In this document: positions 10,634-29,600 of the stretch, in pieces
How the letters are laid out: each line of letters opens with the position of its first letter
Numbering within the stretch: position 1 is the first letter of the stretch
Source: Geobacteraceae bacterium
GTDB lineage: Bacteria; Desulfobacterota; Desulfuromonadia; Geobacterales; Geobacteraceae
Direction: 5' to 3'
Length of the DNA: 64,000 nt
NCBI GenBank assembly: GCA_009773645.1
Contig: WSYB01000017.1
Coordinates: forward strand, 62,001-126,000
Notes under the pieces: generated by a model
What the model was told of the DNA's origin: nothing
The model's database searches: none
Seen by the model: the letters and a program-made list of their open reading frames with translations, nothing else
Translations under genes and position numbers: made by a program

Positions 10634-10720
10634 CCTCCCCCTTTCGTAAAGGGGGATAGAGGGGGATTTAGGCGCAGCCAGTTTCTAAATCCCCCCTGGC
10701 CCCCCTTTACAAAAGGGGGG
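10634..10720. repeat. large inverted repeat, C/G-run palindrome
   Basis: The arms CCCCCTTTCGTAAAGGGGG...GGGGGATTTAG and CTAAATCCCCCC...CCCCCCTTTACAAAAGGGGGG are near-perfect inverted copies around a loop of about 14 bases (10671-10684), and each arm is itself a small palindrome. Such elements are common between genes as repetitive palindromes or miniature mobile elements and can also act as bidirectional terminators. It lies alone in the 209-bp gap between two glycosyltransferase genes. There is no second copy in the window. Confidence 0.7.
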
Positions 10721-10809
10721 AACTGGAGAAACAATAGCAACCTTCTTTTGAGATATAGTTCCGAAAAATGATGTCCTGCTTATATAGAGAATTCAGTTAA
10801 AGGAACCGC

Positions 10810-13800
10810 ATGAACTGCCTGATCTTGATATTCAGCCGCGATCGCGCCTTACAGCTTGATGCAACAATGCACTCGCTTTTATTGCATTGCAAAGACGTGA
10901 AGTCGGCAGATACCCGAGTTCTCTTTACAACAACAAACCCTGTACATGCCAACCAGTACGAACTGTTGAAGAGAGAGTACCACAAATTTGGCTTCATTCA
11001 GTTTGTCGTAGAAAATGATTTCAACAGGGACACTATAGACCTTCTTGCGCCATGCGAACATGTGCTGTTCCTGGTAGATGACAATATTTTCGTGGCAGAC
11101 TTTTCTCTATGCAGTATTGTAGAGAATCTCTCACGGAATCCGGACGCGCTCGGCTTTTCACTGAGGCTGGGAACCAACACTCAATACTGTTATGCGTTGG
11201 ATACGCCACAACCTGTTCCTGACTTCACACGGATATCGGAACGAATTTTAAAATTTAGATGGACGGATGCCGAGCATGATTTCGGTTATCCGCTGGAGGT
11301 CTCCAGTTCCCTTTACAGAACCGCGGATCTGATGCCGTTCCTGCTGACATTTCCCTTCCGAAACCCGAACACCCTTGAAGCGGAGATGTCTGCAAGAAAA
11401 GATTATTTCAGCCATAAGTACCCTTTCCTGTTGTGCCCCCAAACCTCCCTCACTTTTTGCAATCCCATCAACAAGGTGCAAAACGTGGCCCTGGATAACA
11501 GGGCCGGTTCGGCGACCGAATATACCCCTGAATCTCTGGCCGAAATGTTTATGGATGGATATCGAATCGACGTGAAAACTTATGCCGGGTTTATCCCCAA
11601 CGCCTGTCATCAGGAAGTTGGCCTGAAATTCATGAGGAACAACAAAACAAACCCTGTCGTTTCGGTTGTCATCCCCTGCTACAAACAGGCCTGTTATCTG
11701 CCGGAAGCGGTTGAAAGCGTTGTCAACCAGACTTTCATGCAATGGGAATGCATCATCGTCAACGACGGCAGCCCGGACAATACGAGCGATGTCGCCCGAC
11801 AATTGATCGCACGACATCCCGACAAGAATATCCGGCTCATCGAAAAGGCAAACGGCGGCTTGGCCGACGCTAGAAACGCCGGCATCAAGGGAGCAAAGGG
11901 GAAATACATCCTGCCCCTCGACGCGGACGACAAGATACACCCCGACATGCTGGCAAAGACGGTCGCACTGCTGGATGCCAATCCCGATATCGCCATCGCC
12001 TACACCGATCTGATTCACTTCGGTCACGTTAATCGGCATATCCAGGCTGCCGAATATGATTTCAATAAACTGTGCCTGGGAAACCAGCTTAATTACTGCT
12101 CCCTGTACCGCCGCGAGGCTTGGGAGGCGGTCGGCGGCTACAATACGAACATGGTCTGGGGGTACGAGGATTGGAACTTCTGGGTCGGCTGCGGCGAAAA
12201 GGGGTTCATTGCGAAGAGGATTCCCGAACCTCTTCTCCATTACCGCGTCAAAGAAGCCAGCATGTTCACCAAGGCCATTGAGCACGATGCGGAGCTGAAG
12301 GCCCAGATAGCTCTCAATCATCCCCGTCTTTATACCGAGGAAACAATCCGGTGGGCGAAAAAGGTTTTATCGACCCATGATAATCCTATTTACCCGGCCT
12401 CTCCCCTGGTTTCCGTCATCGTCCCCACTTACAACCGTCCCGACATGCTCGCGGAGACGCTCCAGAGCATCCTGAACCAGACCTTCAAGGATTTCGAAAT
12501 AATCGTTGTGAACGACGCGGGGGAGGATGTTCAGGGCATTATCGACTCCCTCAACCATGGGGACACTATTGTTTATCTGAGGCACCCGGCCAACAAGGGG
12601 CTGGCAGCAGCGCGCAACACCGGTGTCAGGGCGGCGCGGGGCAAATACATTGCCTATCTGGACGATGACGACATCTTTTACCCGGACCATCTGGAAACGC
12701 TGGCGTCATTCCTGGAAAACAGTGCCTACAAGGTCGCTTACAGCGATGCCTACCGGGCATACCAGGAAAAAGCGGGCAATGGGTACATCATCACCAAAAG
12801 GGACCTTCCCTACTCCTATGACTTCGATTACGACCGGATCCTGTTCGAGAACTTCATCCCGGTCTTGAGCTTCATGCATGAAAAGGGGTGTATCGAAAAC
12901 GCCGGCTATTTTGACGAAAGCCTCACCACCCACGAAGACTGGGACCTGTGGGTCAGGATGTCGAGAAAATATAAATTCGCCCACGTCAAAAAAGTGACCT
13001 CGGAATTCAGATTCCGCTCCGACGGCAGTTCCATGACCAGCTCAAAGCTGACAGATTTTCTGAGAACCAAGGGGTTGATCTATGGGAAATACCGCGAATA
13101 CGCCCAGGATAAGCCCCACATCCGCATTTACCAGGAGATTTCCCTGAACGCCTTGAAACAGCATATCAGGTCGCTGGACACCCCTTCCCTTCAAAATATT
13201 GACATCCGCGTATCCATTATCATGCCGGTGTTCAATAAGTTGGAATATACCCGGCAGTGCCTGGAAACGTTGAAGGCAAACACGGGGAATGCCGTGCCCT
13301 ATGAAATAATCGTCATAAACAACGATTCAAACGATGGGACGGCGGAGTACCTTGAGAGCATTGGGGGAGACGTCAAGTCCATAAACAACCGGACAAACCT
13401 CGGTTTTGCCGGGGGATGCAACCAGGGGGCGGAAGCGGCTGCCGGCAACTTCCTGCTGTTTCTCAACAATGACATGTTTCCCCGGCACGGCTGGCTCGAA
13501 GCACTCGTCAGCAGCGCAGTGCGGGAAAAGACCGATATCTGCGGTGCAAAAATCCTCTACCCGGATGCAACGGTCCAGCATGCCGGTGTGGCATTCAACG
13601 ACGAGGGAATGCCGTACCACATCTTCAAGGGCTTTCCTACCGACGCCCCGGCGGTCAACCACAAACGGTACATGCAGTGCGTCACCTCCGCATGCATGCT
13701 GATAAAAAAGGGGCTCTTCCTGGAGTTGGGCGGATTTGACGAAGGGTTTCGAAACGGTTATGAGGATATCGACCTCTGCCTGCGGGCGCGAACGCTGGGA

Positions 13801-16017
13801 AAGAAGATCCTCTACAACCCTGAAAGCATCCTCATTCACTTTGAAGAGACGAGCCCCGGTCGGAAGGACCATGACCGGGAAAACCGGGATAGGTTTCTTG
13901 CGCGCTGGCAGGGAAAAGTCACGTGCGACGACACCGACATCTACCGCGCAGAGGGGTACAAAAAAGAAATTACGTCGAACGGCGTCTTCATTGAAAAAAT
14001 CGCACAAGATTTGCAGGAGGATTCGGGAAGGGCTGCAACATCGTATCTGGTCACGGCCATCGTCTCCACGTACAACTCCGCCGAGTTCATCCGGGAATGC
14101 CTGGAGGACCTGGAGAATCAGACCATAGCCGACAGGCTGGAAATCATCGTGATCGATGCCGCCTCTCCCCAAAACGAGGGAGAGATCGTCGCCGAATTCC
14201 GGCGAAAACATGACAACATAACGTATATCCGGACCGGCACAAGGATAGGGGTCTACGCCGCATGGAACATGGCCATACGGGAAGCCCGCGGCGCTTACAT
14301 TACCCCGTTCAGCACAAATGACAGGCTGCGTGACAGCGCCTGTGAAATTCTGGCACGGGCGCTTAGCGAGCACCCGGGGGCAATGCTTGTCTACGGCGAC
14401 ACCTATCTGACGCGCGTACCCCACGAAACCTTTGAAAACAACAGTTGGTACGCCGCGTTCCAGTGGCCTGACTATTCATACGAACAACATCTGGAAACGT
14501 GTCTCGTAGGGCCGCATCCCATGTGGCGCAGAGAGGTCCACGACGAAATCGGCTATTTCGACGAAAAATACGTCGCATGCGGAGACCAGGAGTTCTGGCT
14601 CCGGATGGGAGAAAGGTTCAAGCTGCTCCATATCCCGGAATTCACCGGTTTGTACTGGATAACCCCGGAAGGCCTGTCCAACAGGACCGAGATTACGCAG
14701 CCTGAACTGCATGAAATTCGCACCAGATATCGACAACGCTATGCGTCAAAATCGCAGGAGGAAACAATGGCTTATTCGGATACCGCCGCCTCAAACGTCA
14801 ATATTTCCATCGATTCCGGCAACGGTGCAACGAACGGAGGGAACGTTCAGCCGGTTAATGGAATACAGCTCTCAATCAACATCACCGTGCCGTTCGAGCA
14901 CCTGGAAAAAGTCGGCGCATTTTTTCAGAAGCTTTTCAGCAATGACCTGCTGGGGGTTGCAGGACCACCAACCGCCGGCGCCATAAGCGATGCACCTGTC
15001 AAGCCTGTCGCTGCGGTATCCGAAGAAATCCCGCCTCCGGAAGAGCTCTACGCTAAAGCCCTCTCCCTGGCAAACTCGGGAAGGCAAGACGAGGCCATTG
15101 CCGAGCTGGAAGGTGTTCTCCGGTTACACCCCCACTATGCCCTTGCCCATAACGACCTGGGAGTCCTCTATTATCAGAAGGGGGACAAGGTAAAATCTCT
15201 GGAGCACCATGAAAAGGCGGTCCAGCTCAATCCGGAAAACATCACCTTCAGGAAAAATCTCGCCGAGCTCTACTTTGTGGAACTGGGGAGGACCGACGAC
15301 GCAATCTTCGCCTTCCTCGACATCCTGAAAAAGCACCCCAACGATGTCGAAACCCTGATGGGCCTGGGACGGATCAGCGTTGCAATCGGCCGTACGGAAG
15401 AGGCAAAGACGTTTTTCGGGAAAGTTCTCAACATCGAACCTTGGAACGCCGCGGCGCGTCAGCAGCTTGACCTCCTCCGGGACAACAGCGGCAGCGACCT
15501 CAATGGAGTAATTGGGAGTCTAAAAAACTCGGTAACCGGGCACGAACAGAATTCTCCCGAAGAGGCATACAAGATGGTAGAGACACTCGTAAACTCCGGA
15601 AGAGGGGATGAAGCCATCATGGGCCTGGAAAGGCTCCTGCTGCGCCATCCGCATTATGCCCTTGCCTGCAACGACCTGGGAGTTCTGTATCACCAACGGG
15701 GAGATACGGCAAAATCCCTGGAGCACCATGAGAAGGCGGTCAGGCTTAACCCGGAAAACGTCACCTTCAGAAAAAACCTTGCCGAGCTCTACTTTACGGA
15801 ACTGGGGAGGACCGATGACGCGATCTTCGCGTTTCTGGACATCCTGAAAAAGCATCCCAACGACGCCGGAACCTTAACGAGTCTGGGACACATCAGCACG
15901 GCAATCGGCCAGCCGGCCGAGGCAAAGACGTTTTTCAAGAAGGCGCTCGATATCGAGCCATGGAATGTTGCGGTACGGCAGCAACTGGACCAGCTTGCGC
16001 AACAGGTTTTTTTTTAG
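10810..16017 (+). CDS. giant multi-GT2 glycosyltransferase with TPR tail
   Basis: A 1735-residue protein. The N-terminal ~275 residues resemble a divergent glycosyltransferase. Four GT2 (GT-A) domains begin near residues 283 (SVVIPCYKQACYLPEA, with DADD), 532 (SVIVPTYNRPDM, with DDDD), 800 (SIIMPVFNKLEYT, with NND) and 1079 (TAIVSTYNSAEF). Two near-identical TPR blocks (offset 519 nt, about 173 residues) fill roughly 1411-1717. GT2 enzymes transfer sugars from nucleotide donors, and tandem fusions often build repeating glycans. The frame ends at a TAG right after a run of nine T (16007-16015) and the next glycosyltransferase frame begins at once in the -1 frame, so this may be the N-terminal half of a larger product. 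Confidence 0.82.
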   Translation: MNCLILIFSRDRALQLDATMHSLLLHCKDVKSADTRVLFTTTNPVHANQYELLKREYHKFGFIQFVVENDFNRDTIDLLAPCEHVLFLVDDNIFVADFSLCSIVENLSRNPDALGFSLRLGTNTQYCYALDTPQPVPDFTRISERILKFRWTDAEHDFGYPLEVSSSLYRTADLMPFLLTFPFRNPNTLEAEMSARKDYFSHKYPFLLCPQTSLTFCNPINKVQNVALDNRAGSATEYTPESLAEMFMDGYRIDVKTYAGFIPNACHQEVGLKFMRNNKTNPVVSVVIPCYKQACYLPEAVESVVNQTFMQWECIIVNDGSPDNTSDVARQLIARHPDKNIRLIEKANGGLADARNAGIKGAKGKYILPLDADDKIHPDMLAKTVALLDANPDIAIAYTDLIHFGHVNRHIQAAEYDFNKLCLGNQLNYCSLYRREAWEAVGGYNTNMVWGYEDWNFWVGCGEKGFIAKRIPEPLLHYRVKEASMFTKAIEHDAELKAQIALNHPRLYTEETIRWAKKVLSTHDNPIYPASPLVSVIVPTYNRPDMLAETLQSILNQTFKDFEIIVVNDAGEDVQGIIDSLNHGDTIVYLRHPANKGLAAARNTGVRAARGKYIAYLDDDDIFYPDHLETLASFLENSAYKVAYSDAYRAYQEKAGNGYIITKRDLPYSYDFDYDRILFENFIPVLSFMHEKGCIENAGYFDESLTTHEDWDLWVRMSRKYKFAHVKKVTSEFRFRSDGSSMTSSKLTDFLRTKGLIYGKYREYAQDKPHIRIYQEISLNALKQHIRSLDTPSLQNIDIRVSIIMPVFNKLEYTRQCLETLKANTGNAVPYEIIVINNDSNDGTAEYLESIGGDVKSINNRTNLGFAGGCNQGAEAAAGNFLLFLNNDMFPRHGWLEALVSSAVREKTDICGAKILYPDATVQHAGVAFNDEGMPYHIFKGFPTDAPAVNHKRYMQCVTSACMLIKKGLFLELGGFDEGFRNGYEDIDLCLRARTLGKKILYNPESILIHFEETSPGRKDHDRENRDRFLARWQGKVTCDDTDIYRAEGYKKEITSNGVFIEKIAQDLQEDSGRAATSYLVTAIVSTYNSAEFIRECLEDLENQTIADRLEIIVIDAASPQNEGEIVAEFRRKHDNITYIRTGTRIGVYAAWNMAIREARGAYITPFSTNDRLRDSACEILARALSEHPGAMLVYGDTYLTRVPHETFENNSWYAAFQWPDYSYEQHLETCLVGPHPMWRREVHDEIGYFDEKYVACGDQEFWLRMGERFKLLHIPEFTGLYWITPEGLSNRTEITQPELHEIRTRYRQRYASKSQEETMAYSDTAASNVNISIDSGNGATNGGNVQPVNGIQLSINITVPFEHLEKVGAFFQKLFSNDLLGVAGPPTAGAISDAPVKPVAAVSEEIPPPEELYAKALSLANSGRQDEAIAELEGVLRLHPHYALAHNDLGVLYYQKGDKVKSLEHHEKAVQLNPENITFRKNLAELYFVELGRTDDAIFAFLDILKKHPNDVETLMGLGRISVAIGRTEEAKTFFGKVLNIEPWNAAARQQLDLLRDNSGSDLNGVIGSLKNSVTGHEQNSPEEAYKMVETLVNSGRGDEAIMGLERLLLRHPHYALACNDLGVLYHQRGDTAKSLEHHEKAVRLNPENVTFRKNLAELYFTELGRTDDAIFAFLDILKKHPNDAGTLTSLGHISTAIGQPAEAKTFFKKALDIEPWNVAVRQQLDQLAQQVFF
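15045..15990 (+). repeat. internal tandem duplication of a TPR block
   Basis: Two copies of a TPR-encoding stretch lie 519 nt apart (for example the string GGAGCACCAT at 15201 and 15720, and LEHHEKAV followed by LNPEN in both). The copies share most residues, for example the FAFLDILKKHPND segment. This is a recent in-frame duplication within the glycosyltransferase gene rather than a separate element. Confidence 0.8.
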
Positions 16018-19000
16018 CCGAGGCCGGTGAAACCGCCCCATCCCATCCGGTTGCCGCATTGGAAGAGAACGGGGAGTTGGACACAACTCCTCTCGTCTCG
16101 ATAGTCATTCCGGTTTTCAACCAGGTCGCATTTACCCGGCAGTGCCTGCAGTCAATCCTGCTCAATCCTCCTCCCCTCCCCTTCGAGATCATCGTCGTAG
16201 ACGATGCCTCAACCGACGGCACCCAGGATTTTCTCCATACCTGCTGCAAAGATGAGCCGCGTATCCGGGTCGTCAGAAACGAGGCAAATCTCGGCTTTGC
16301 CGCCTCGTGCAACCGGGGCGCGGCAATAGCCGGAGGAGAGTATGTCCTCTTCCTGAACAACGACACAGAGCCGCTTTCCGACTGGCTTTCGCCTCTTGTC
16401 GGGGTTCTCGATAAACATGCGGACATCGGCATAGTCGGACCGAAGCTGATCTTTCCCGACCGGACCATCCAGCATTGCGGCAAGGTCTGGCAAGACTCGG
16501 AAAATCCATCGTCCCAACCGGAACACATCTATTACCGGGCTCCCGCCGATGCGCCCCACGTCAACAAAAGCAGGGATTATCAGATGATGACCGGCGCTTG
16601 CATGCTGGTCAGAAAGAACGAATTCCTCGCCATCGGCCCTTTCGATGAATGCTATGTGAACGGCTGGGAAGACGACGACCTCTGCTACGCTTATCGCGCC
16701 CAAGGGAAACGGGTGTTTTACTGTGCCGAAAGCGAAGTCGTTCACCACCAGAGTAAAACCCTCGGCGCCACTATCCACAAGACATTGGACATGCTGGTGC
16801 TGTACGAGAAGAAAAGAGAGTTTTGTGATGCCTCCGGCAACGCCGTAGAGGGGAATGAAAAGGTCGTCTCCTTCCTCGATGACAAACTTTCCGTTAACAG
16901 GGCCAGGTTCGACCGGAACAGAAAACGTTTTTTTGACAAATGGGGGAACATGGTTGTTCGCGATGATTTCACGTATTACCGGGAAGACGGTCTTCCCCTT
17001 CCGTCCCGAGAAAATACCGCCAGCCACGTTCCCATCAAGCCTGACAGTTCCGCTTCCATAATCATTCTCACATTCAATTCCGAAAAAACCATCGCCAACT
17101 GCCTCTCCAGCGTGGCAAGACATCTGAGGCCCGATGATGAAGTCATCGTTGTCGATAATGCATCCGAAGATGCAACCGTCGAGTTCGTAAAACGGTTTCT
17201 CGACGGGAAAAAACCGTTCCGGCTTATGGAGAACCCGACAAACCTTGGTTTCTCCGCGGGGACGAACGTGGGAATCGCCGCCAGCAACAAGCCATTGGTT
17301 GTCCTTTTGAATCCTGACACCATTGTCACCGAAAACTGGCTGGACCGTCTTGCCGCGCACTTCACGGCAGCCGATATCGGCGCCGTCGGGCCTGTTTCCA
17401 ATTACGTCGCGGAACGGCAAAAGATGCAGCTCTACATGAAAAAGGAGCTGGCGCCGGACACCCCCGTGGACGAAATCGCCGGGTATCTTTATGCGTGGAA
17501 CAAGGGGAGCGCAGTTGAGACGAAACTTTTGATCGGTTTCTGCATGATGCTGCGCAGGGATGTCTTTGAAAAAGTGGGGCTGCTCGACGAAGCTCTTTTT
17601 CTGGGAAATGACGATCTGGAGTTGAGCTGGCGGCTCTCAGTCAACGGCTGCCGGCTGAAAATCGCGACAGATACCTTTATCTATCATGAATGGCGACAAA
17701 GCTTCTCCACCGTGAGCAAAGAGTCCGTTTCCCGGCTGGTCCAGCAAAGCACCGATGCGCTCTATGCAAAACTCCAGGCGCATTACGGAGCGCAGAATGT
17801 ACCTACCCCCCAGGAATTGTGGGGAATGGGAACCGTCTGGTTCAAGCCGGCATCCGCCGCTTTCAATCCTAATTCCAAAATATCGGCCCTCCTCAAGAAG
17901 CCGAATACCAGAGGTCAGATGAATAACCCGACAAAGGCATCGATCCACCCCCTCGTTTCCATCGTCATTCTCACCTTCAATCAGCTCGACTACACGCGGG
18001 AATGCATCGCCAGCATCCGCCGGCACACGCCCGGCCCCCATGAAATCATCTTTGTGGACAACGGCTCGCAGGACGGAACGGTCCAGTGGCTGCGGGAGCT
18101 TGTGCAGAACAACCGCCATTACCGGTTGATCGAAAATCGGCAGAATCTGGGCTTTGCCAAGGGATGCAACCAGGGAATAGAGTCGGCTTCGGGCGATTAT
18201 ATCCTCCTCTTGAATAACGACGTGATAGTCACCCCGGAATGGCTCAGCGGCATGCTGGAATGCTATTCCCATGTTCCCGATGCCGGGATCGTCGGCCCCA
18301 TGACCAACAACATCAGCGGAATTCAAAAAGTACCTTGCGTTGGGTACGATAATCTTGACCGGCTCGATGATTTTGCGCAGGGGTTCAGACGTGAAAACAG
18401 ACACCGCCGCATCCCCTTCAGGAGGATCGTCGGGTTCTGCATGCTGTTCAAGCGCAGTCTGGTCGACCGAATCGGGCTCCTTGACGAAACCTTCGGCACC
18501 GGCAATTTTGAGGATGACGATTTCTGCTACAGGGCCGCCCTGGAAGGATATCGGAACATCATCGCCGCCGATGTGTTTATCCATCATTTCGGCAGTGTCA
18601 GTTTTACCGGCAATAACATCAACTTTGCCGCAGCAATGACCGTCAACATGGGATTGTTCGATCAAAAATGGCATGACCCCGAACTGGACGACGCCACCGC
18701 CGTAAAGATCCTGGCGGTCAGGACCCTGGAAAAGGCGGAGATGCTCAATCAGCGATGGGAGGTCGGCAAGGCGGTTGACGTGATTTTGCAGGAGGGGATC
18801 AAATACGCGCCCGATGACAAGCGGTTTTATTACGCCCTGGCCGAATACCTGCTGGACGCGAAGCGTTTTAAGGATGCGCTGGAACTTCTCAATGAGATCC
18901 CTGAGGAAGTGCAAGAGGCAAGAAGGTTTGCCCTCGCGGGCTTTTGCAGGGAAGGGATGGGACTGCGCCAGGAAGCGGCAGAACTGGCGGCCCTGGCCCT

Positions 19001-20732
19001 GGCGCTTGAGCCGGATTATCCCCTGGCGCTGAACCTCAAGGGAACCGTTGCCTACAGCAGCGGCAACAAAAGCGACGCAGAAGCGCTTTTCCAAAAAGCC
19101 ATCGACTCCGACCCCGGTTACGGGGAACCGTACACGAACCTGGGGGTAATGAAATGGAGCGAGGGAGAGCACAAAGACGCCCTCGCTCTCTTCGAGCGCG
19201 GGTTCGTTCTCTCACCCACCATGACTGACGTGGTAAATACCTTCCACTCGGCAATCTGCGAGCTCGGGGAGTTCGAGCGCGGCGAACCCCTGTTCAGGAA
19301 TGCGAACTCCCTGTATCCGCACAACAAGGGGATTGCTTTCTTTCTCGTTGATATCCTCATAAGGCAAGGTAAATACGGGGAAGCAATGAAGGAGATCGAA
19401 GCCGCACTCGTCAATTTTGGAGCCGATGACGGGACAGTCGCGGCGGCATTGCAGGTAAGGGAAAAGCTCGGTCCTTCGGAAATTGCAGATTCTTCCGGTA
19501 CGGAGCGGAAGGAAACCGTTTCTCTCTGCATGATCGTCAAAAATGAAGAGAAAGACCTGCCAAAATCCCTTCTGAGTCTGACACCGCTCGTTGATGAAAT
19601 AATCGTTGTCGACACCGGCGCCACTGACCGGACGAATGACATCGCCAGAATCTTTGGAGCACGGGTATTTGATTTTCAATGGAGCGGCGACTTTTCCGCG
19701 GCGAGAAACTTTGCCGCGTCCAAGGCACACGGCGACTGGATTCTCGCCATGGACGCCGACGAAGTCATCTCCCCCCGGGATTACACCAGATTCAACGCCT
19801 TGGCAACAAACTCAAAAACCGCGCCGGTCGCCTATGAATTTACAACCAGAAACTACATAACAAAGGTAAACGTGGAGAAATGGACCCCCAATGACGGGAC
19901 CTACTTTCGGGAAGAGGCGGGCGCAGGGTGGGTTCCCAGCGACAAGGCACGGCTTTTCCCCAACATGAAAGGGGTGGTGTTTGAAAATCCCGTCCACGAA
20001 AAGGTGGAACCGTCCCTTGTGCGCCTCCGCATACCGGTTGTGAGAGCGGACGTGCCGATTCACCACTACGGCAAGCTGAACCCGGACAAAGATATCGCCA
20101 AGGGAGAGCATTATTACCTGTTGGGGATAAAAAAGCTCACTGAAACCGGCGGCGACCTGGATGCAATCTGTGAGCTCGCCATTCAGGCAGGGATGCTGGA
20201 AAGGTACGACGAGGCGATCGAACTCTGGCATAAGGCGCTAGTGATCAAGCCGGACCTCCCGGTCGCGTTCTTCAACCTGGGGTACGCCCATATGCAACTG
20301 AATCAGTTCTCGAAGTCCCTGGCCGCCTCAAAAAAGGCAATGGAGCTCAAACCCGATTTCAGGGAAGCGATTTCAAATTATTGCATCGGTGAGGTTTACT
20401 GCGGAGATGCAGAAAAAGCCATTGCGCGCCTTGAGGAGACAGTGCGGGAAACCCCGGAAAATCCCGGTGCGCTGCTGGTGCTTGCAATCGCATACAGTTG
20501 CAGCGGAGAAAAAGAAAAGGGATCGAAGCACTTTGCTGCGATCAAGCGGATGCAGATTGAATGTTCCGCTTTCGTGAATGATTTCGTGAAAAAACTCGTG
20601 GCGGCGGGGAGGTCGGAGTATGCAGGGAGGCTCCTTGAAGCGGCGTTAGCCAACAATGTTTCCAACGAGGATACTATCGGCCTCTTGGAAGAACTCGCCA
20701 CGCAGGAAAACGCTTCAATAATGGTCGTTTAA
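15960..20732 (+). CDS. giant multi-GT2 / TPR glycosyltransferase (possibly second half of the previous gene)
   Basis: Up to 1590 residues. GT2 domains begin near residues 44 (SIVIPVFNQVAFT), 365 (SIIILTFNSEKTI) and 664 (SIVILTFNQLDYT), each followed by an NND or NPD acidic site. TPR repeats run from about 927 to 1170. A fourth GT2-like domain starts near 1186 (VSLCMIVKNEEKDL, with LAMDADE), and TPRs fill the C-terminus. ATG 15960 lies inside the previous gene, has no convincing Shine-Dalgarno sequence, and its first ~20 codons are antiparalogous to TPR sequence; no better start is visible before the first GT2 domain. Expression through the T9 run is therefore attractive. A probable polymerising glycosyltransferase for flagellar or surface glycan. 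Confidence 0.72.
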   Translation: MECCGTAATGPACATGFFLAEAGETAPSHPVAALEENGELDTTPLVSIVIPVFNQVAFTRQCLQSILLNPPPLPFEIIVVDDASTDGTQDFLHTCCKDEPRIRVVRNEANLGFAASCNRGAAIAGGEYVLFLNNDTEPLSDWLSPLVGVLDKHADIGIVGPKLIFPDRTIQHCGKVWQDSENPSSQPEHIYYRAPADAPHVNKSRDYQMMTGACMLVRKNEFLAIGPFDECYVNGWEDDDLCYAYRAQGKRVFYCAESEVVHHQSKTLGATIHKTLDMLVLYEKKREFCDASGNAVEGNEKVVSFLDDKLSVNRARFDRNRKRFFDKWGNMVVRDDFTYYREDGLPLPSRENTASHVPIKPDSSASIIILTFNSEKTIANCLSSVARHLRPDDEVIVVDNASEDATVEFVKRFLDGKKPFRLMENPTNLGFSAGTNVGIAASNKPLVVLLNPDTIVTENWLDRLAAHFTAADIGAVGPVSNYVAERQKMQLYMKKELAPDTPVDEIAGYLYAWNKGSAVETKLLIGFCMMLRRDVFEKVGLLDEALFLGNDDLELSWRLSVNGCRLKIATDTFIYHEWRQSFSTVSKESVSRLVQQSTDALYAKLQAHYGAQNVPTPQELWGMGTVWFKPASAAFNPNSKISALLKKPNTRGQMNNPTKASIHPLVSIVILTFNQLDYTRECIASIRRHTPGPHEIIFVDNGSQDGTVQWLRELVQNNRHYRLIENRQNLGFAKGCNQGIESASGDYILLLNNDVIVTPEWLSGMLECYSHVPDAGIVGPMTNNISGIQKVPCVGYDNLDRLDDFAQGFRRENRHRRIPFRRIVGFCMLFKRSLVDRIGLLDETFGTGNFEDDDFCYRAALEGYRNIIAADVFIHHFGSVSFTGNNINFAAAMTVNMGLFDQKWHDPELDDATAVKILAVRTLEKAEMLNQRWEVGKAVDVILQEGIKYAPDDKRFYYALAEYLLDAKRFKDALELLNEIPEEVQEARRFALAGFCREGMGLRQEAAELAALALALEPDYPLALNLKGTVAYSSGNKSDAEALFQKAIDSDPGYGEPYTNLGVMKWSEGEHKDALALFERGFVLSPTMTDVVNTFHSAICELGEFERGEPLFRNANSLYPHNKGIAFFLVDILIRQGKYGEAMKEIEAALVNFGADDGTVAAALQVREKLGPSEIADSSGTERKETVSLCMIVKNEEKDLPKSLLSLTPLVDEIIVVDTGATDRTNDIARIFGARVFDFQWSGDFSAARNFAASKAHGDWILAMDADEVISPRDYTRFNALATNSKTAPVAYEFTTRNYITKVNVEKWTPNDGTYFREEAGAGWVPSDKARLFPNMKGVVFENPVHEKVEPSLVRLRIPVVRADVPIHHYGKLNPDKDIAKGEHYYLLGIKKLTETGGDLDAICELAIQAGMLERYDEAIELWHKALVIKPDLPVAFFNLGYAHMQLNQFSKSLAASKKAMELKPDFREAISNYCIGEVYCGDAEKAIARLEETVRETPENPGALLVLAIAYSCSGEKEKGSKHFAAIKRMQIECSAFVNDFVKKLVAAGRSEYAGRLLEAALANNVSNEDTIGLLEELATQENASIMVV
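16007..16015 (+). other. T9 slippery run at the junction of two GT frames
   Basis: Nine T residues occupy 16007-16015. In the upstream frame they read GTT TTT TTT TAG, so the heptamer T TTT TTT lies directly before the stop. A -1 ribosomal slip, transcriptional slippage adding one U, or one more T in the DNA would continue into the downstream frame (..VFFLAEAGETAP..) and fuse the two glycosyltransferases. Runs of nine T or A are known to cause productive slippage in bacteria (Shigella mxiE, Thermus dnaX). A sequencing error or a true frameshift mutation cannot be excluded. Confidence 0.6.
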
Positions 20733-20777
20733 ACTGATTGCATAACCTTTTAACCGAGCAATTGATTAAGATTAATC

Positions 20778-20945
20778 AAAAACGGCAATTGGACACGGAT
20801 TAACACGGAAAAAGCGGATTAAAACTGATAATTCAAGGAGATGAACTGGGTTACTGCTGCAATCTTTTGAGTTAATGCTCTCAGTGGTTTAAATCCGTGA
20901 AAATCCGTATAAATCAGATTTGATCCGTGTTCAAATGCTTTTTCT
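20778..20945. repeat. dispersed repeat R1, copy A
   Basis: About 168 bp beginning AAAACGGCAATTGGACACGG and ending TGATCCGTGTTCAAATGCTTTTTCTA. It is nearly identical to 34048-34216 in the same orientation. Internal motifs ACACGGATTAACACGG and ATCCGTGAAAATCCG / GATCCGTGTT are inverted relatives, so the element can fold on itself like a non-autonomous miniature element. The rest of 20733-21011 shows nothing coding. Confidence 0.85.
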
Positions 20946-21074: not shown

Positions 21075-21458
21075 TTACGGACTTGCCGGACCTGTCCTGA
21101 GGCCCGCCGCCAGATTGAAGTTAATATTGATGACGGTAGTAAGCTTTTCAGGTGAAGGATACGCCATGACATCGAACAATCGTTTGTCGATGAAGAGGCT
21201 CAGGCTGAGGATGTCCTCGCGCAGATTTTTCGGCATCGGATTGTCCGGACTGGACAGTTCAGCCTGAAAAAAGCTCCAGATTTTCTGGTTATACTTTATT
21301 GCCTCGTCAAGTTGAAAATCCCTGTCATTGGCATTCCAGTTTTCCTGACAATTCTTCAACAACAATCCTGCCTTGGTCAGTACGGAAGCCTCAAGCTCAC
21401 GCTGAGACATCCCTTCTTTGTTAATGCTTTGGTAAGTTTCAAAAGGATTTGCGGCCAT
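21075..21458 (-). CDS. flaF: flagellar regulator FlaF
   Basis: A 127-residue protein of the FlaF family, recognised from RELEASVLTKAGLLL, the central YNQKIWSFFQAELSSPDNP and LREDILSLSLFIDKR. In alphaproteobacteria FlaF works with FlbT to adjust flagellin synthesis and secretion. ATG 21458 is preferred to TTG 21464 because AAGGAG lies ten bases before the ATG and only four before the TTG. It overlaps the 3' end of flbT by 20 nt, which indicates translational coupling. Finding the pair in a flagellar locus of deltaproteobacterial type is less usual than in alphaproteobacteria. Confidence 0.88.
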   Translation of the reverse strand: MAANPFETYQSINKEGMSQRELEASVLTKAGLLLKNCQENWNANDRDFQLDEAIKYNQKIWSFFQAELSSPDNPMPKNLREDILSLSLFIDKRLFDVMAYPSPEKLTTVININFNLAAGLRTGPASP

Positions 21459-21837
21459 GTTCAAGTAGCTCCTTTTCGTAGTCTAATAGTTTTCGGGCTG
21501 TTTTTAAAGCCTGGTAATAGTGTCCACAGAGAATCTTTTCACTCATCTCTTCGATAATTTTTTTGGTACTCGGGGCTGCGTCCAGCACATCTTTCACCAA
21601 ATCCCAGTACCTTTTGTGGTAATCGACGAGATTTTTTTCGTCTATGTACATGAGCTGGACTGCAAAATATATACGGCGACAAGGAGTATCGACTTCCTTC
21701 TCACTCAGAATGTCTTTTTCACGCAGAATCGGGACATTGTTTTCAACGTAAAGTTCGGCAGCCTTACCGCCGTTTTTCACGACAGCACCGCCGATGATCA
21801 ATTTTTCGTTTGCCTTGAGCCTGATTTTCAGAGACAT
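21439..21837 (-). CDS. flbT: flagellin synthesis regulator FlbT
   Basis: A 132-residue FlbT family protein: a beta-rich start (LKIRLKANEKLIIGGAVVKNG), then VPILREKDIL and CRRIYFAVQLMY, then a helical C-terminus. In Caulobacter FlbT binds the flagellin mRNA leader and promotes its decay when the hook is unfinished. Here it lies two genes downstream of a flagellin whose leader is about 150 nt and carries two hairpins, so the same control is plausible. Coupled to flaF by a 20-nt overlap. Confidence 0.88.
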   Translation of the reverse strand: MSLKIRLKANEKLIIGGAVVKNGGKAAELYVENNVPILREKDILSEKEVDTPCRRIYFAVQLMYIDEKNLVDYHKRYWDLVKDVLDAAPSTKKIIEEMSEKILCGHYYQALKTARKLLDYEKELLEHGRKSF

Positions 21838-22537: not shown

Positions 22538-23395
22538 TTAGAAGAGACGGAGTACCGCCTGAGCGGCCTGAGAAGACATGCTCAACGATGAGATCCCCAG
22601 GTTCTGGCGAGTCTGGAGCATCAGCATGTTGGCGCCTTCTTCATTCATATCCGCCAGGGTCAGATTGTCGGCCCCGGTGGTGAGGTTGTTGATCATGCTA
22701 TCCGTATAATCCTGACGGGTGGTGACAACGCTCAGGTTCGCGGACAGGTCGGCGGACTTCGACCGCAGGACTGTCAGAGCTGAGTCGAGCTGGCTGGCGG
22801 AGAAAGAGATCGCATTTGCGCCGCCGGACGCGGCAGTGGATGCCCAAGAAGAGGAGTCCGCTGCCACGGCAACCGAAGCAGCCGCGATAGTGAGGCCGGC
22901 AGAGGTCGAGGTAAAGCCGGTAACGGTCAGGGTGGCATCGCCCGTCTTCGCAGAGAACTCGACGGTCTTGTTGTCGCCGTTGACCAGGTTCGTGCCGCGG
23001 TAGCTGGAGTCGCTCGCCAGCTTATCGATCTGGGTGCGCAGGGTATTGAAGGTATTCCCGTATGCCGAACGGTCGGTGACGCTGGTGGTTGCGTTGGCAG
23101 CGTCGGCAACACCTTTTGCCGCGTTGATGAGCGACGTAATCGCCTTGATGCCGGCATCGGCGGACCTCAGCATCTGGACCGCCTCGCTCATGCCGTCCTT
23201 GCGGACGTCAAGGTCGTTCGCGCGGTTGACGTGGTTCTGCGCCGCAAAGAAGTTGGTCGGGTTGTCGAGAGGGGTGTTGACCTTTTTGCCGGAAGAGAGA
23301 CGATTCTGGGTTTGGTCCGTCGCCTTTTTTGTGCCCTGAAGTTGGAGGAGGTTGTTTTTCATCCCCGCGGTTAATGAAATGTCTGAGATTGCCAT
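22538..23395 (-). CDS. fliC: flagellin
   Basis: A 285-residue flagellin. The N-terminal D0/D1 helices include RLSSGKKVNTPLDNPTNFFAA and the C-terminal helices include LTLADMNEEGANMLMLQTRQ, ending in the usual short hydrophobic tail (AAQAVLRLF). The central region, rich in Ser/Thr/Ala (about residues 145-205), is short, so the filament surface is small and Ser/Thr-rich, which suits O-glycosylation. AAGGAG precedes the ATG. Transcription most likely starts at the sigma-28 site at 23545-23571. Unknown gene, flbT and flaF follow on the same strand, and GT41/GT9-type enzymes lie upstream. Confidence 0.95.
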   Translation of the reverse strand: MAISDISLTAGMKNNLLQLQGTKKATDQTQNRLSSGKKVNTPLDNPTNFFAAQNHVNRANDLDVRKDGMSEAVQMLRSADAGIKAITSLINAAKGVADAANATTSVTDRSAYGNTFNTLRTQIDKLASDSSYRGTNLVNGDNKTVEFSAKTGDATLTVTGFTSTSAGLTIAAASVAVAADSSSWASTAASGGANAISFSASQLDSALTVLRSKSADLSANLSVVTTRQDYTDSMINNLTTGADNLTLADMNEEGANMLMLQTRQNLGISSLSMSSQAAQAVLRLF

Positions 23396-23614: not shown

Positions 23615-26600
23615 TTAGCATTTTTCACACCATATTTGCCAAACGTAACGATACGCCCCTTCCAGGCTGCGGGTAAAGCCCTCTGCATCCGTAAGGGGTG
23701 AACGGGTGAGCCGCCCCCGCAACCCTTCCCGCAGCGTCCGCAACCCTTCCCGGTCATGGGCAAGCCTGACGGCTGTCTCCAGGTACTCTTCCGGGGTTTC
23801 AGCAATCAGTTCGCCGCACCCTGCAGTGGAAAGGAGGCTCACCCCTACGCGGGACACATGGGTCTTCCCCCTGAGGGTGATTACCGGCACTCCCATCCAG
23901 AGCGCCTCACAGGTGGTGGTGGTCCCGTTGTAGGGGAACGTGTCGAGCGCTATGTCCACGCGGTTGTAAAGGTCGAGATGGCCCAGGTATGAGAGGGTAT
24001 TTCCCTGCATCTCCAGACGGCCGGGAGCAACTCCATGGGAAGCGAACGTCTCCTGCACATGCTTCTGCATGCTTTCTTCGCCAAGCCCCAGTGACTTCAA
24101 CATCAGGCGGGAGCCCGGCACAGCCAAAAGGATGCGCGCCCAGAGGGCGATGGCTTCCGGGGTAACCTTGGCGAAGTTGTTGAATGAGGCAAAGGTGACA
24201 GGGCCGGTCAGCCCGGCAGGCAAGGGGCCGACATCGGGGGCGTTCTGCGCCGGGCGGTAGCAGAGGAACGTCGCCGGCAACCGGAGGAGTTGTTCGGTGT
24301 GGAACTGCTCCGTAAGTCCCGGCGGGTCGGCCTTGGCGTCGGTAATCCGGTAGTCCACGGCGGCAAGGCCGGTGGTATCGGGATAGCCGAGCCACGATAT
24401 CTGAATGGGGGCCGGTTTGCGCGCGAACATGAGCATCCGGTTATTGGCGGTATGCCCTGCCAGGTCAACGAGGATGTCGATCCCGTCCTTTCGGATGACC
24501 TCCGCCGACTCTTCATCGGAGACCCCGGCAATCGTGCGCCACTGGTCCGGGAGTTTCTTCAGCTGTTCCGTAAAGCTATCGGGAACAATGGCATCCGAAT
24601 AGCAGAAGACCATGAAGCGCTCATGATTATGGGCAGCCAGCGCCGGTTGAATAAAAAAAGCAACCGGATGGATTTTAAAATCGGGTGAAACGTAGCCGAC
24701 CCGTAACGGACGATCGGGAACCGGGGCGTTCGGACAGGAAAACGATGCGGCCATGAGCGGTTCGGCATGCCGCTTTGCCCAGGTAAGATGCTCTGCAAAG
24801 ATTTCCCGTGGCGTATACGTGGAGGAATAATGCATGGCAAACAGCAGATTGCCGTGACACGACCGGTAATCGGGATTCAGCTCCAGCGCCCTGCGGTATG
24901 CGTCGATGGCCGCATCCGGCCGCGCCTGCGCCTGCAAGGTAATGCCGATGTTGTTGTACGCCTCATGGGAATCAGGCTTCAACGCCAACGCCTTTTGCAA
25001 GCATTCAACGGCCCTCCCCGGCCTGCCGCTTTCCTTCAAGGCCACGCCGAGGTTATTCCAGACGTCATGGGATTCATTATCTACATCCAGAGCGGTGCGA
25101 TAGGCATCGATGGCTGCCTCCAGCTCCCCCGCATCTCTGAGAGCGTTGCCAAGGCCGATGTGCGCATCAAAAAATACAGGGTTAAGCTCCAACGCCTTCC
25201 GGTAATATTCAATGGAGCCGATTATGTCGGCCTGTATTTTCAAAACCGCTCCCAACCCGTTATACGCATTGGCATAATCGGGTTTTATTTCGAGTGCTGA
25301 ATGAAAGCAGCCGATGGCGGCATCGAGTTCCCCTTTCTCTTTCAGCGCAAGCCCCAGGTTATGGTGGGCCGGATAATAAGCCGGCTCAGTCTCCAGCGCC
25401 TTCCGGAAGCATTCAACGGCCTCATCGAGCAGTCCTTGCTCCTTCAGGGCATTGCCCAGGTTGTTTCGGGCAAGATAGAAGCCGGGCTCGGACTCAAGCG
25501 CTCTCCGGTAGCATTCAATCGCCTCATCCATCCTTCCATGGTCTTTCAGGGCGTTGCCGAGATTATAGCAAGTCTCTTGAAAATCCGAATCATCGGCTCC
25601 GACCTGCTCTTCGGCAGCGCTCTTTTCACACCATATTTGCCAAACGTGACGATACGCCTCCTCCAGGCTGCGGGTAAATCCCTCTACATCCGTAAGGGGT
25701 GAACGGGTAAGCCGCCCCCGCAATCCTTCCCGCAGCGTCCGCAACCATTCCCGGTCATGGGCAAGCCTGACGGCTGTCTCCAAGTACTCTTCCGGGGTTT
25801 CAGCAATCAGTTCGCCGCACCCTGCAGTTGAAAGGAGGCTCACCCCTACCCGTGACACATGGGTTTTCCCCCTTAAGGCGATGACCGGCGTCCCCATCCA
25901 GAGCGCTTCGCAGGTCGTCGTGGTTCCGTTATAGGGGAACGTGTCGAGAGCTATGTCCACGCGGTTATAAAGGTCAAGATGATCCAGGTATGACAGGTTG
26001 TTCCCCTGCATCTCCAGGCGGTCGGGAGTAACCCCACGGGAAGCGAACATCTCCTGTACACGTCGCTGCATGACTTCTTCGCCAAGCCCCAGTGACTTCA
26101 GCATCAGGCGGGAGCCCGGCACAGCCAGGAGGATGCGCGCCCAGAGGGCTATGGCTTGCGGCGTGACTTTGGCGAAGTTGTTGAATGAGGCAAAGGTGAT
26201 ATGGCCGCTCTCCCCTGACGGCAAGGGTCCGACATCGGGGGCGTTCTGCGCCGGGCGGTAGCAGAGGAACGTCGCCGGCAGCCGGAGGAGTTGTTCGGTG
26301 TGGAGCTGCTCCGTAAGTCCCGGCGGGTCGGCCTTGGCATCGGTAATCCGGTAATCCATGGCGGCAAGGCCGGTGGTATCGGGATAGCCGAGCCACGTTA
26401 TCTGGACCGGCGCCGGTTTACGCGCGAACATGAGCATCCGGTTGTTGGCGGTATGCCCTGCCAGGTCAACGAGGATGTCGATCTTATCCCTGCGGATCAC
26501 TTCCGCCGCCGCCTCATCGGATAGCCCGGCAATCGTGCGCCACTGGCCGGGCAGATTTTGCAACTGTCTGGTAAAAATGTCGGGGGACATGACATCCGAA

Positions 26601-29600
26601 TAGCAAAATACTGTGAAGCGCTCATGGTCGTGTGCGGCCAACGCAGGTTCGATGAAAAAGGCAACAGGGTGAATTCTGAAGTCGGGAGAAACATAACCGA
26701 CCCGCAAGGTACGGTCAAGAATGGGAGAATTGGGATGGGATACAGCAATGTTCATGAGCGGTTCAGCTTGAATCCTTGCCCAGCGGAGATGCTCGGCAAA
26801 GATTTCCATGGGTTCGTATTTCGGAGAATAGTGGAGAGCAAAAAGAAGATTGCTATGGGATGGCTGGTAATCGAGCTTCAGTTGCAGCGCCTTGCGACAA
26901 GCTTCAATGGCGGCTTCGGGATTGGCCTTAGCTTTCAGCGCATTACCAAGATTATTGTATGCCTCATGGGAATCGGGCTTTAATTCCAAGGCCTTATGGT
27001 AAGAATCCACCGCGGCATCCAGCATCCCCTGTTCCTTCAACGCATTGCCAAGTGACATCGATGCGTCAAAGAAGGCGGGATTGAAAGCCAGTGCTTGCCG
27101 GTACGCTTGAACAGCCTCATCCAGTCTGCCCAGTTGCTGAAGTGCATTTCCCTGATTATTAAGAGCTTCCATATAATCAGGATTAAGCTGCAATGCCTTT
27201 TGATAGCACTGTACGGCACCATCAAAATCACCTTTATTCTGGAGAACGATCCCCAGATTATAATGGGCCATAGGATAAACAGGGTTGATATCCAAAGCCG
27301 TGCGAAAACAGTCGGCAGCCTCATCAGGTCTTCCCAGCTCCTTGAAAGCGATACCCAGGTTATTGTGAAAAGAAGACGTATGGCCGTTTGCAGAGATTGC
27401 CCGGGAGAACATCTCTGCGGCTTTTTCGTAATTGCCGGCTTTGAAGGCCTCGATGCCGAGCAGATTGAACGCATCGGCATCGGTGTCGCTTTCAGGTAGA
27501 GTCTGCCCTTCCCCGGCGGGGTGAGGTATCAGCCCGGCGTTTGCGGCTGAGGCGACAAGCTCTGCCAGGGCCTCCTTCACCCTTATCATTACACCTTGCC
27601 AATCGCCGGACTTTTCCTGCCGGAACAGCCGCATGGAAGGATACCAGGGGCTGTCGTCACGGTCGAGCAGCCAGCGCCAGTCCGGTGCAAACGGCAGGAG
27701 AACCCACACCGGTTTTCCCATTGCCCCGGCCAGGTGGGCAACAGCGGTATCAATGGAAATGATCAGATCGAGGCCGGCGATGAAGGCCGCGGTGTCGGCG
27801 AAATCCCCGATGTCTCCCGTCAGGTCCGCAAGCTCCATCCCCTGCGGCGGATTTCCGGCCTCCTCAGCCCCGTCACCCAACTGAAGACTGTAGAATGTCA
27901 AACCCGGCAGAGATGCCAGAGGGGCAAATGTCTCCAGGCGGCATGATCTTTTCCGGTTGAGGACCTGGCTCTGCCTCCCCTTCCAGACCAATCCGACCTT
28001 ACATGAACGGTCCGCTCCGATCCTTTGCCGCCAGGTTTTCGTTAAATCCGGGGAAGGAGTTACGTAGGGGACAAGTGCCGGGATGGTTTCCAGGGTTGTG
28101 CCGAACAGAAAAGGGAGGCTTGCGAGCGGATAGTGCACGTCGAATTCCGGAAGAGCTTCCCCTTGGGCAACAACTGCGGCAACACCCGCCACCCGCTCGA
28201 TGACCGGTTTGAGCGCCGCTGTCTGGCATTCCACGACCACCCTCCCGCCGCGCCCGGCAACGAGCGGGACATAGCGAACTAACTGGAATGTGTCGCCGAA
28301 CCCCTGTTCCCCGTAGAGGAGGACAGTCCGCCCGTTGAGTCCGCTGCCGTCCCAGATGGGTTTGGAAAATTCGCGTTTCCGGACCGGATTTTTCTTCCTC
28401 CAGCGCCACTGGTACCCTGCAAAACCGTCAAGAAAATTCCCCTGCAGAAGCTGCACCAGAGAAAGATTCCAGTGGGCTTCGGCCAGGTCCGGCACAAAAG
28501 AGATGGCGCGCCGGTAACTCTCGGCCGCTTCCCCATACATTCCCTGCCCCTCAAGGGCGGCCCCCAGATTATTGAGGGCATCAACGCAGTCATGCTGCAG
28601 CGCCAGCGCCTTCCGGTAACAGGCAACGGCCTCGTCCATCCTGTCCTGCATCTGAAGGACGGTCCCCAGGGCGTTCCAGGAATCCACATGGTCAGGCTCC
28701 ACCCCGAGTACCTTTTCATAACATGTCTCAGCTTCCGCCAGCATTTCCCGGGAATGATACAGCTCTCCCAGACTGTACAAGGCTTCCGGATAATCGGGCT
28801 TCAGGGCCAGCGCCTGCTGCACGGACGCCGTGGCCTCTCCCGTCTTTCCTTGAGACTGCAACAGCAGCCCCAGATTGTGATGGATTTCCGCAATGTGCGG
28901 AGCGAATTTCAGCGCCTGCCGATAACACTCCAAGGATTCATCAGGCCTGCCGAGTTTGTTACAGGCGTTCCCCATGTTGTAGAAGGCATGGGCAAATTCC
29001 GGTTTCAGAGAGATGGCCTTCCGGTAACGCCCCAGCGCCTCCTTATGCCGTCCCCGGCCTCCCAGGAGCGCCCCCAGGTTGTTGTGCGCCTCCGCATATA
29101 GGGGATGAAGGGCCAGCGCCGTGTTGAACATATGCTCGGCATCGTCAGGCATCCCCTCCCCGTCAAGGGAGCAGCCACGGTTGTTATAAAACTCCGCGGC
29201 AAACCCTTGCAAGGCGTGCCGCACATTGACGAGCACGTTGCCCCAGTCACCGGGCTTGCCCTGACGAAACAGGCGCATGGAAGGATACCAGGGGGTGTCG
29301 CAACGCCCCAGAAACCAGCGCCAGTCAGGTGCAAACGGCAACAGCACCCAGACCGGCTTTCCCATCGACCCCGCCAGGTGAGCAACCGCCGTGTCGATGG
29401 AAATGACAAGATCAAGTCCGGCGATCAAGGCTGCCGTGTCCGCAAAATCCCCGATCTCCCCCGTCAGGTCCGCCATGCACAGCCCTTGGGGGAGAGTGCC
29501 GGCCTGCGCGGCTTCTTCACCCATCTGGAGGGTGTAAAATGTTGTCCCCGGCATGCCTGCAAGTGTCGCAAAGTTTTCGAAGGGACAACTCCGGTTCCTG

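Follow-up and report, generated by a model that had tools for sequence, protein, structure and literature searches.

A Conserved Run of Nine T, Probably a Site of Transcriptional Slippage, in a Giant Glycosyltransferase Gene next to Flagellin

Introduction

In Shigella, mxiEa and mxiEb are joined by transcriptional slippage on a U run, which is a precedent for making the longer product in this way; in many genomes, selection against slippage can be seen once a tract has nine A or T (PMC1088944). Slippage on the A runs of tssM genes proceeds at rates of about 15–25% (PMC4256274). In Caulobacter, the protein FlmG binds flagellin through its TPR part, without which the glycosyltransferase is not brought to its target, and the glycosyltransferase part alone cannot reach flagellin (PMC7591256).

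The window considered here is a stretch of 64,000 nucleotides from a Geobacteraceae bacterium (contig WSYB01000017.1, positions 62,001 to 126,000), in which a run of nine T (T9) stands between two giant glycosyltransferase frames. In our opinion, T9 is quite probably a conserved programmed site of transcriptional slippage in a giant glycosyltransferase gene linked to flagellin. As far as can be judged from sequences, the decisive evidence against a chance run is the comparison with relatives.

The Two Frames and Their Neighbourhood

Nine T residues occupy positions 16007–16015 of the forward strand, to which the coordinates refer unless otherwise indicated. As part of GTT TTT TTT TAG, they close an open reading frame of 1735 amino acid residues (10810–16017), the last T of the run being the first letter of the stop codon (TAG, 16015–16017). 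The product of this frame, expected without slippage, comprises an N-terminal module and four GT2 domains and ends in two TPR blocks arranged in tandem. The first block (15010–15489) was assigned with Pfam, and the second (15550–16014), a near-duplicate of the first, reaches T9. The other frame, open from 15819 to 20732 and offset by −1, reads TTA GCC GAG ... after the run and passes into a GT2 domain from about position 16080. Its portion belonging to the predicted fusion (16014–20732) has the architecture GT2-GT2-GT2-TPR-GT2-TPR, and the first GT2 domain past the junction, GTe (16080–16949), shows about 47–63% identity to its positional counterparts in relatives. Glycosyltransferase domains of both frames correspond to the Pfam family Glycos_transf_2 (GT2).

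The initial annotation had described this end of the first frame and the −1 continuation into GT2 accurately. The fusion predicted across T9 contains 3307 residues, with ..QQVFF directly followed by LAEAGE.. at the junction, in agreement with the peptide ..VFFLAEAG.. that had been expected there. Products of about 1735 and 3300 residues had been suggested as well; these sizes correspond to the frames, and the existence of both proteins is only inferred.

The two TPR blocks (15010–16014) share long near-identical protein stretches and look like a recent tandem duplication, T9 being located after the second of them only. Repeat-like intergenic stretches flank the giant frames at 10635–10725 (inverted, of the GGGGGATTTA/TAAATCCCCC type) and 20770–20940 (GGATTAACACGG..-like).

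Nowhere else in the window do nine or more identical bases follow one another. The draft genome (4.74 Mb in 78 contigs) contains 40 matches to T9 on both strands, and only that of the window is flanked on either side by clear coding sequence, with a change of frame across it. No convincing further slippage gene was found among the other T9 and A9 sites of this genome, and a weaker candidate, the A9 site L184, was dismissed on inspection. A search with the junction protein against genome contigs gave distant GT2 relatives only. In two other genomes, long G runs lie in open frames near other giant GT genes (G10 of G022, oriented L113, 9869–9878; G11 of G057, oriented L088, 15387–15397) and may be phase-variation tracts or assembly artefacts.

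Radical-SAM and methyltransferase genes are situated upstream of the giant GT gene, and on its other side convergent genes of FlaF (21075–21464, reverse strand) and FlbT (21439–21837, reverse strand) are followed by the small open reading frame orf183 and the flagellin gene (22538–23395, reverse strand). The order flagellin-orf183-FlbT-FlaF beside the GT gene is kept, wholly or partly within the DNA compared, in G016, G026, G031, G049, G116 and other relatives across the order, and the loci were treated as orthologous because synteny as well as sequence agree.

Beside the flagellin gene, the reverse strand encodes a TPR protein of 2310 residues (23615–30547) with a TTG start and two very similar halves. 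By our own reading of the sequence, each half apparently comprises TPR and an O-GlcNAc-transferase-like part, and the protein may be another giant candidate for the glycosylation of flagellin, one that arose by internal duplication.

States of the Boundary in Related Genomes

The genomes searched numbered 141 for the order and 277 for the class, and about 60 homologous loci were compared at the boundary between TPR and GT2. Relatives had been proposed earlier as a check on the conservation of the run and of the frame offset. Seven genomes belonging to three families have T9 together with the −1 offset at the same boundary, namely, those of the window, G016, G026, G031 and G033 (family f1), G049 (f3) and G116 (f4). 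A locus tree distributes them over about six deep, long-branched lineages (the window; G116; G026 with its sister G031; G049; G033; G016). A pattern search of the 277 genomes of the class for T9, 50–80 nt and the start of a GT2 domain matched five genomes; in four of them the match is this junction, and the fifth (G050) is probably due to chance.

Other states of the boundary were found in further relatives. Separate genes without a T run, the second typically with its own ATG just past or overlapping the stop, are present in G084, G053, G136, G110 (an ATGA overlap) and G128, and among relatives with separate genes G056, G126 and G081 have only TTG as start candidates. In these last three (oriented copies L090, L095 and L092, respectively), the GT frame overlaps the end of the TPR gene by about 50 nt in the +1 direction, with no homopolymer. 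Single in-frame fusions without the run occur in G021, G007, G009 and G015. The genome G029 carries T10 at the homologous site (L074, 10230–10239; G029:C43:268229-268238), which is in frame and gives a frame of 3388 residues, and in its sister G021 the run is down to T4.

Two observations had been named in advance as refuting slippage, ten T in the DNA and relatives having separate genes with clear starts. Ten T do exist as the in-frame allele of one relative, which keeps phase variation in play as a rival. Separate genes with clear starts occur in one subclade, but its members lack the T run, and this strengthens the case for slippage. From the tree and these states taken together, it follows that the run is free to erode where the frame has been repaired in the DNA and that exactly nine T are kept where it has not.

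Divergence around the Run

The DNA flanks anchored on T9 are 29–30% identical, i.e., at the random level, and the TPR parts of the out-of-frame loci have 40–49% identity to those of the window. Codon usage gives odds of 0.006–0.11 per locus for writing FFL as TTT TTT TTR, and their product is about 3e-11 over six sites of common register; it assumes independent lineages, which is only approximately true, and omits the window, where the register is different. The window has GTT TTT TTT T and all other T9 loci have xxT TTT TTT TT, the direction of the frameshift being the same. Since about six deep lineages have retained the run and the offset but not the surrounding sequence, the programmed slippage put forward in the initial annotation remains the best supported reading.

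In five of the six lineages, the zero-frame stop lies at most five codons past the run (chance expectation 16% or less), and the tail FFLxS(x) directly before a stop is found in G016, G026, G031, G049 and G116. Judged by this pattern alone, the close stop suggests that the short product is wanted; alternatively, it could simply have been inherited from a TPR gene that formerly stood apart.

Slippage and the Alternatives to It

According to the mechanism proposed, faithful transcripts with nine U would be read only as far as the end of the TPR block, yielding a short protein, which would have 1735 residues in the window and would be a TPR protein of about 350–390 residues in most relatives that carry T9 there. 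A share of the transcripts would gain one U, equivalent to a −1 shift, so that the frames would be joined into the TPR-GT2 fusion of 3307 residues predicted for the window. Slippage would thereby set the ratio of a TPR-ended product to a TPR-tethered glycosyltransferase. The run, its offset, their conservation and the synteny with the genes of flagellin, FlbT and FlaF are observed directly, and a slip by RNA polymerase and the formation of both products are inferred without RNA, protein or read-level data. Three features of slippage of the mxiE type are present, namely, a run of at least nine T where two overlapping frames meet, conservation of the run and offset while the flanks diverge, and, in G016, G033, G049 and G116, a downstream frame lacking its own start, with only weak candidates in the window and possible starts in G026 and G031.

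Owing to the T10 genome, the main rival, which is unlikely and nevertheless stays alive, is a phase-variable contingency locus, where replication slippage would alter the tract in the DNA, T9 being OFF for the long product and T10 ON. Genes modifying flagellin are often phase variable via homopolymers (for example, PMC3068675). Against this, seven of the eight tracts are exactly T9 and one is T10, no T8 or T11 having been found between species. Nine T is also short for a mutable tract. The close zero-frame stop is kept, although an OFF frame does not need it, and G021, sister of the T10 genome, is in frame yet has lost the run, unlike a tract kept for switching.

Programmed −1 frameshifting by the ribosome, which had been offered beside transcriptional slippage, might be supposed because the slippery heptamer T TTT TTT, already pointed out in the initial annotation, is present in the zero frame at all sites. 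The heptamer needs only seven T, however, and the eighth and ninth T are invariant as well; moreover, the codon register differs in the window. No conserved RNA fold was found upstream or downstream of the run (among 14 folds, only that downstream in G116 had z below −1, at −1.92), and inspection by eye revealed no Shine-Dalgarno sequence at suitable spacing upstream of the sites. G033 alone has a stem just ahead of the run. Ribosomal frameshifting is improbable in our estimation, and of the two mechanisms suggested, the transcriptional one seems to fit the sequences better because all nine T are kept, the register differs in the window and there is no conserved stimulator. An intrinsic terminator at T9 was considered and rejected, as there is neither a terminator-like site on the forward strand at this place nor a conserved upstream stem.

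Another possibility is that of two separate genes, the second of which would start alone or by re-initiation past TAG. Real separate genes with their own ATG do exist in the related subclade, and possible starts were noticed by eye in G031 (GTG after GAGGAGG) and G026 (GTG after GAAGGA), so that internal initiation in this pair could not be excluded. The initial annotation had denied the second frame of the window a good start, and this holds. Its sole in-frame ATG (15960–15962) is situated inside the first frame, 58 nt ahead of the stop and without a Shine-Dalgarno sequence; it was rejected as a credible conserved start, being a by-product of the conserved EPWN motif, whose CCATGG yields ATG when read in −1. 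This ATG recurs in G026 and G116 and is absent elsewhere (G016, G033, G049). The TTG codons at +44 and +62 past the run are weak and unconvincing. Around the junction of G033 and G049, the downstream frame contains no ATG, GTG or TTG. G016 and G116 have no start codon ahead of the GT domain, the first one past the run falling within it. The GT domains of these four lineages, where the absence of any other downstream start is seen directly, are intact and well conserved, and for lack of a usable start the fusion must be made in them. Independent genes would also leave the retention of T9 unexplained, and we regard this explanation as very improbable.

Assembly errors most often consist of a one-base difference in a homopolymer, but the same T9 and offset recur in seven separately assembled genomes, several of them nearly complete, and the downstream frames are intact over 1270–1637 codons wherever the contig contains them, so that an assembly error or a frameshifted pseudogene is close to refuted.

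Putative Function

The locus resembles FlmG in having TPR and a glycosyltransferase beside the genes of flagellin, FlbT and FlaF, and it lacks a domain of the GT-B fold, the Pfam domains being GT2. By analogy, the TPR part probably binds flagellin, although this is inferred in the absence of binding data. The role of a polymerising enzyme, ascribed to the protein at first, is not supported, the locus being that of a flagellin-linked TPR/GT2 glycosyltransferase. It is more likely that the split separates a TPR end alone from TPR joined to additional GT2 domains. The short product of the window also has four GT2 domains, and the term free TPR module strictly applies only to relatives with a lone upstream TPR gene.

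A broader proposal may be made only tentatively, and we would not insist on it. Slippage of RNA polymerase on the conserved T9 in several families of the order would fix the ratio of a free flagellin-binding TPR module to the same module tied to GT2, flagellin glycosylation would be dosed by transcriptional stutter, and related lineages would have replaced slippage by separate genes or by in-frame fusion.

Significance and Comparison with Known Systems

Summarizing the data, it may be concluded that a conserved programmed frame transition by transcriptional slippage is the most likely interpretation. To our knowledge, conserved programmed slippage in cellular genes beyond mobile elements and secretion systems has rarely been documented. 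A protein-glycosylation gene would thus join the list of slippage-decoded genes, and the loci of this kind warn against being taken for pseudogenes or assembly errors. One boundary offers a natural experiment, existing with an out-of-frame T9, with an in-frame T10, as a fusion without a run and as separate genes with their own starts, and it becomes testable how much free TPR module, as against TPR-GT enzyme, flagellin modification needs.

Nothing linking slippage to this gene family was found in the literature, a listing in the 2011 survey of disrupted ORFs (PMC3199440) or in supplements not being excluded. The family is not mentioned in the main text of GeneTack (PMC3711429), nor in the first 300,000 characters of the 2016 review (PMC5009743).

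Several described systems are similar to this locus in part. In mxiE, a U run also lies at the overlap of two frames, and one extra U in some transcripts leads to a longer product. That gene encodes a regulator of type III secretion, whereas here a chromosomal giant glycosyltransferase gene stands beside flagellin; the present site is, in addition, conserved in three bacterial families, and relatives in which the genes are separate or fused can be set beside it. Citrobacter tssM1, Yersinia tssM3 and Thermus dnaX likewise obtain two length variants from a homopolymer without ribosomal stimulators (PMC4256274, PMC1088944), but their runs consist of A and not T, and slippery sites are reported to be uncommon among tssM genes, whereas here they occur on about six lineages. 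In contingency genes of flagellin glycosylation such as Campylobacter Cj1295 (PMC3068675), a homopolymer also lies in a flagellin-modification gene, but the tract length varies in the DNA, and here it is near-constant between species. Caulobacter FlmG shares with our locus the order of TPR and then a glycosyltransferase part, and flagellin, FlbT and FlaF belong to the same pathway (PMC7591256). FlmG is, however, a single protein of 596 residues of the GT-B type, whereas the giant gene considered here encodes several GT2 domains and has its frame break exactly between TPR and GT2.
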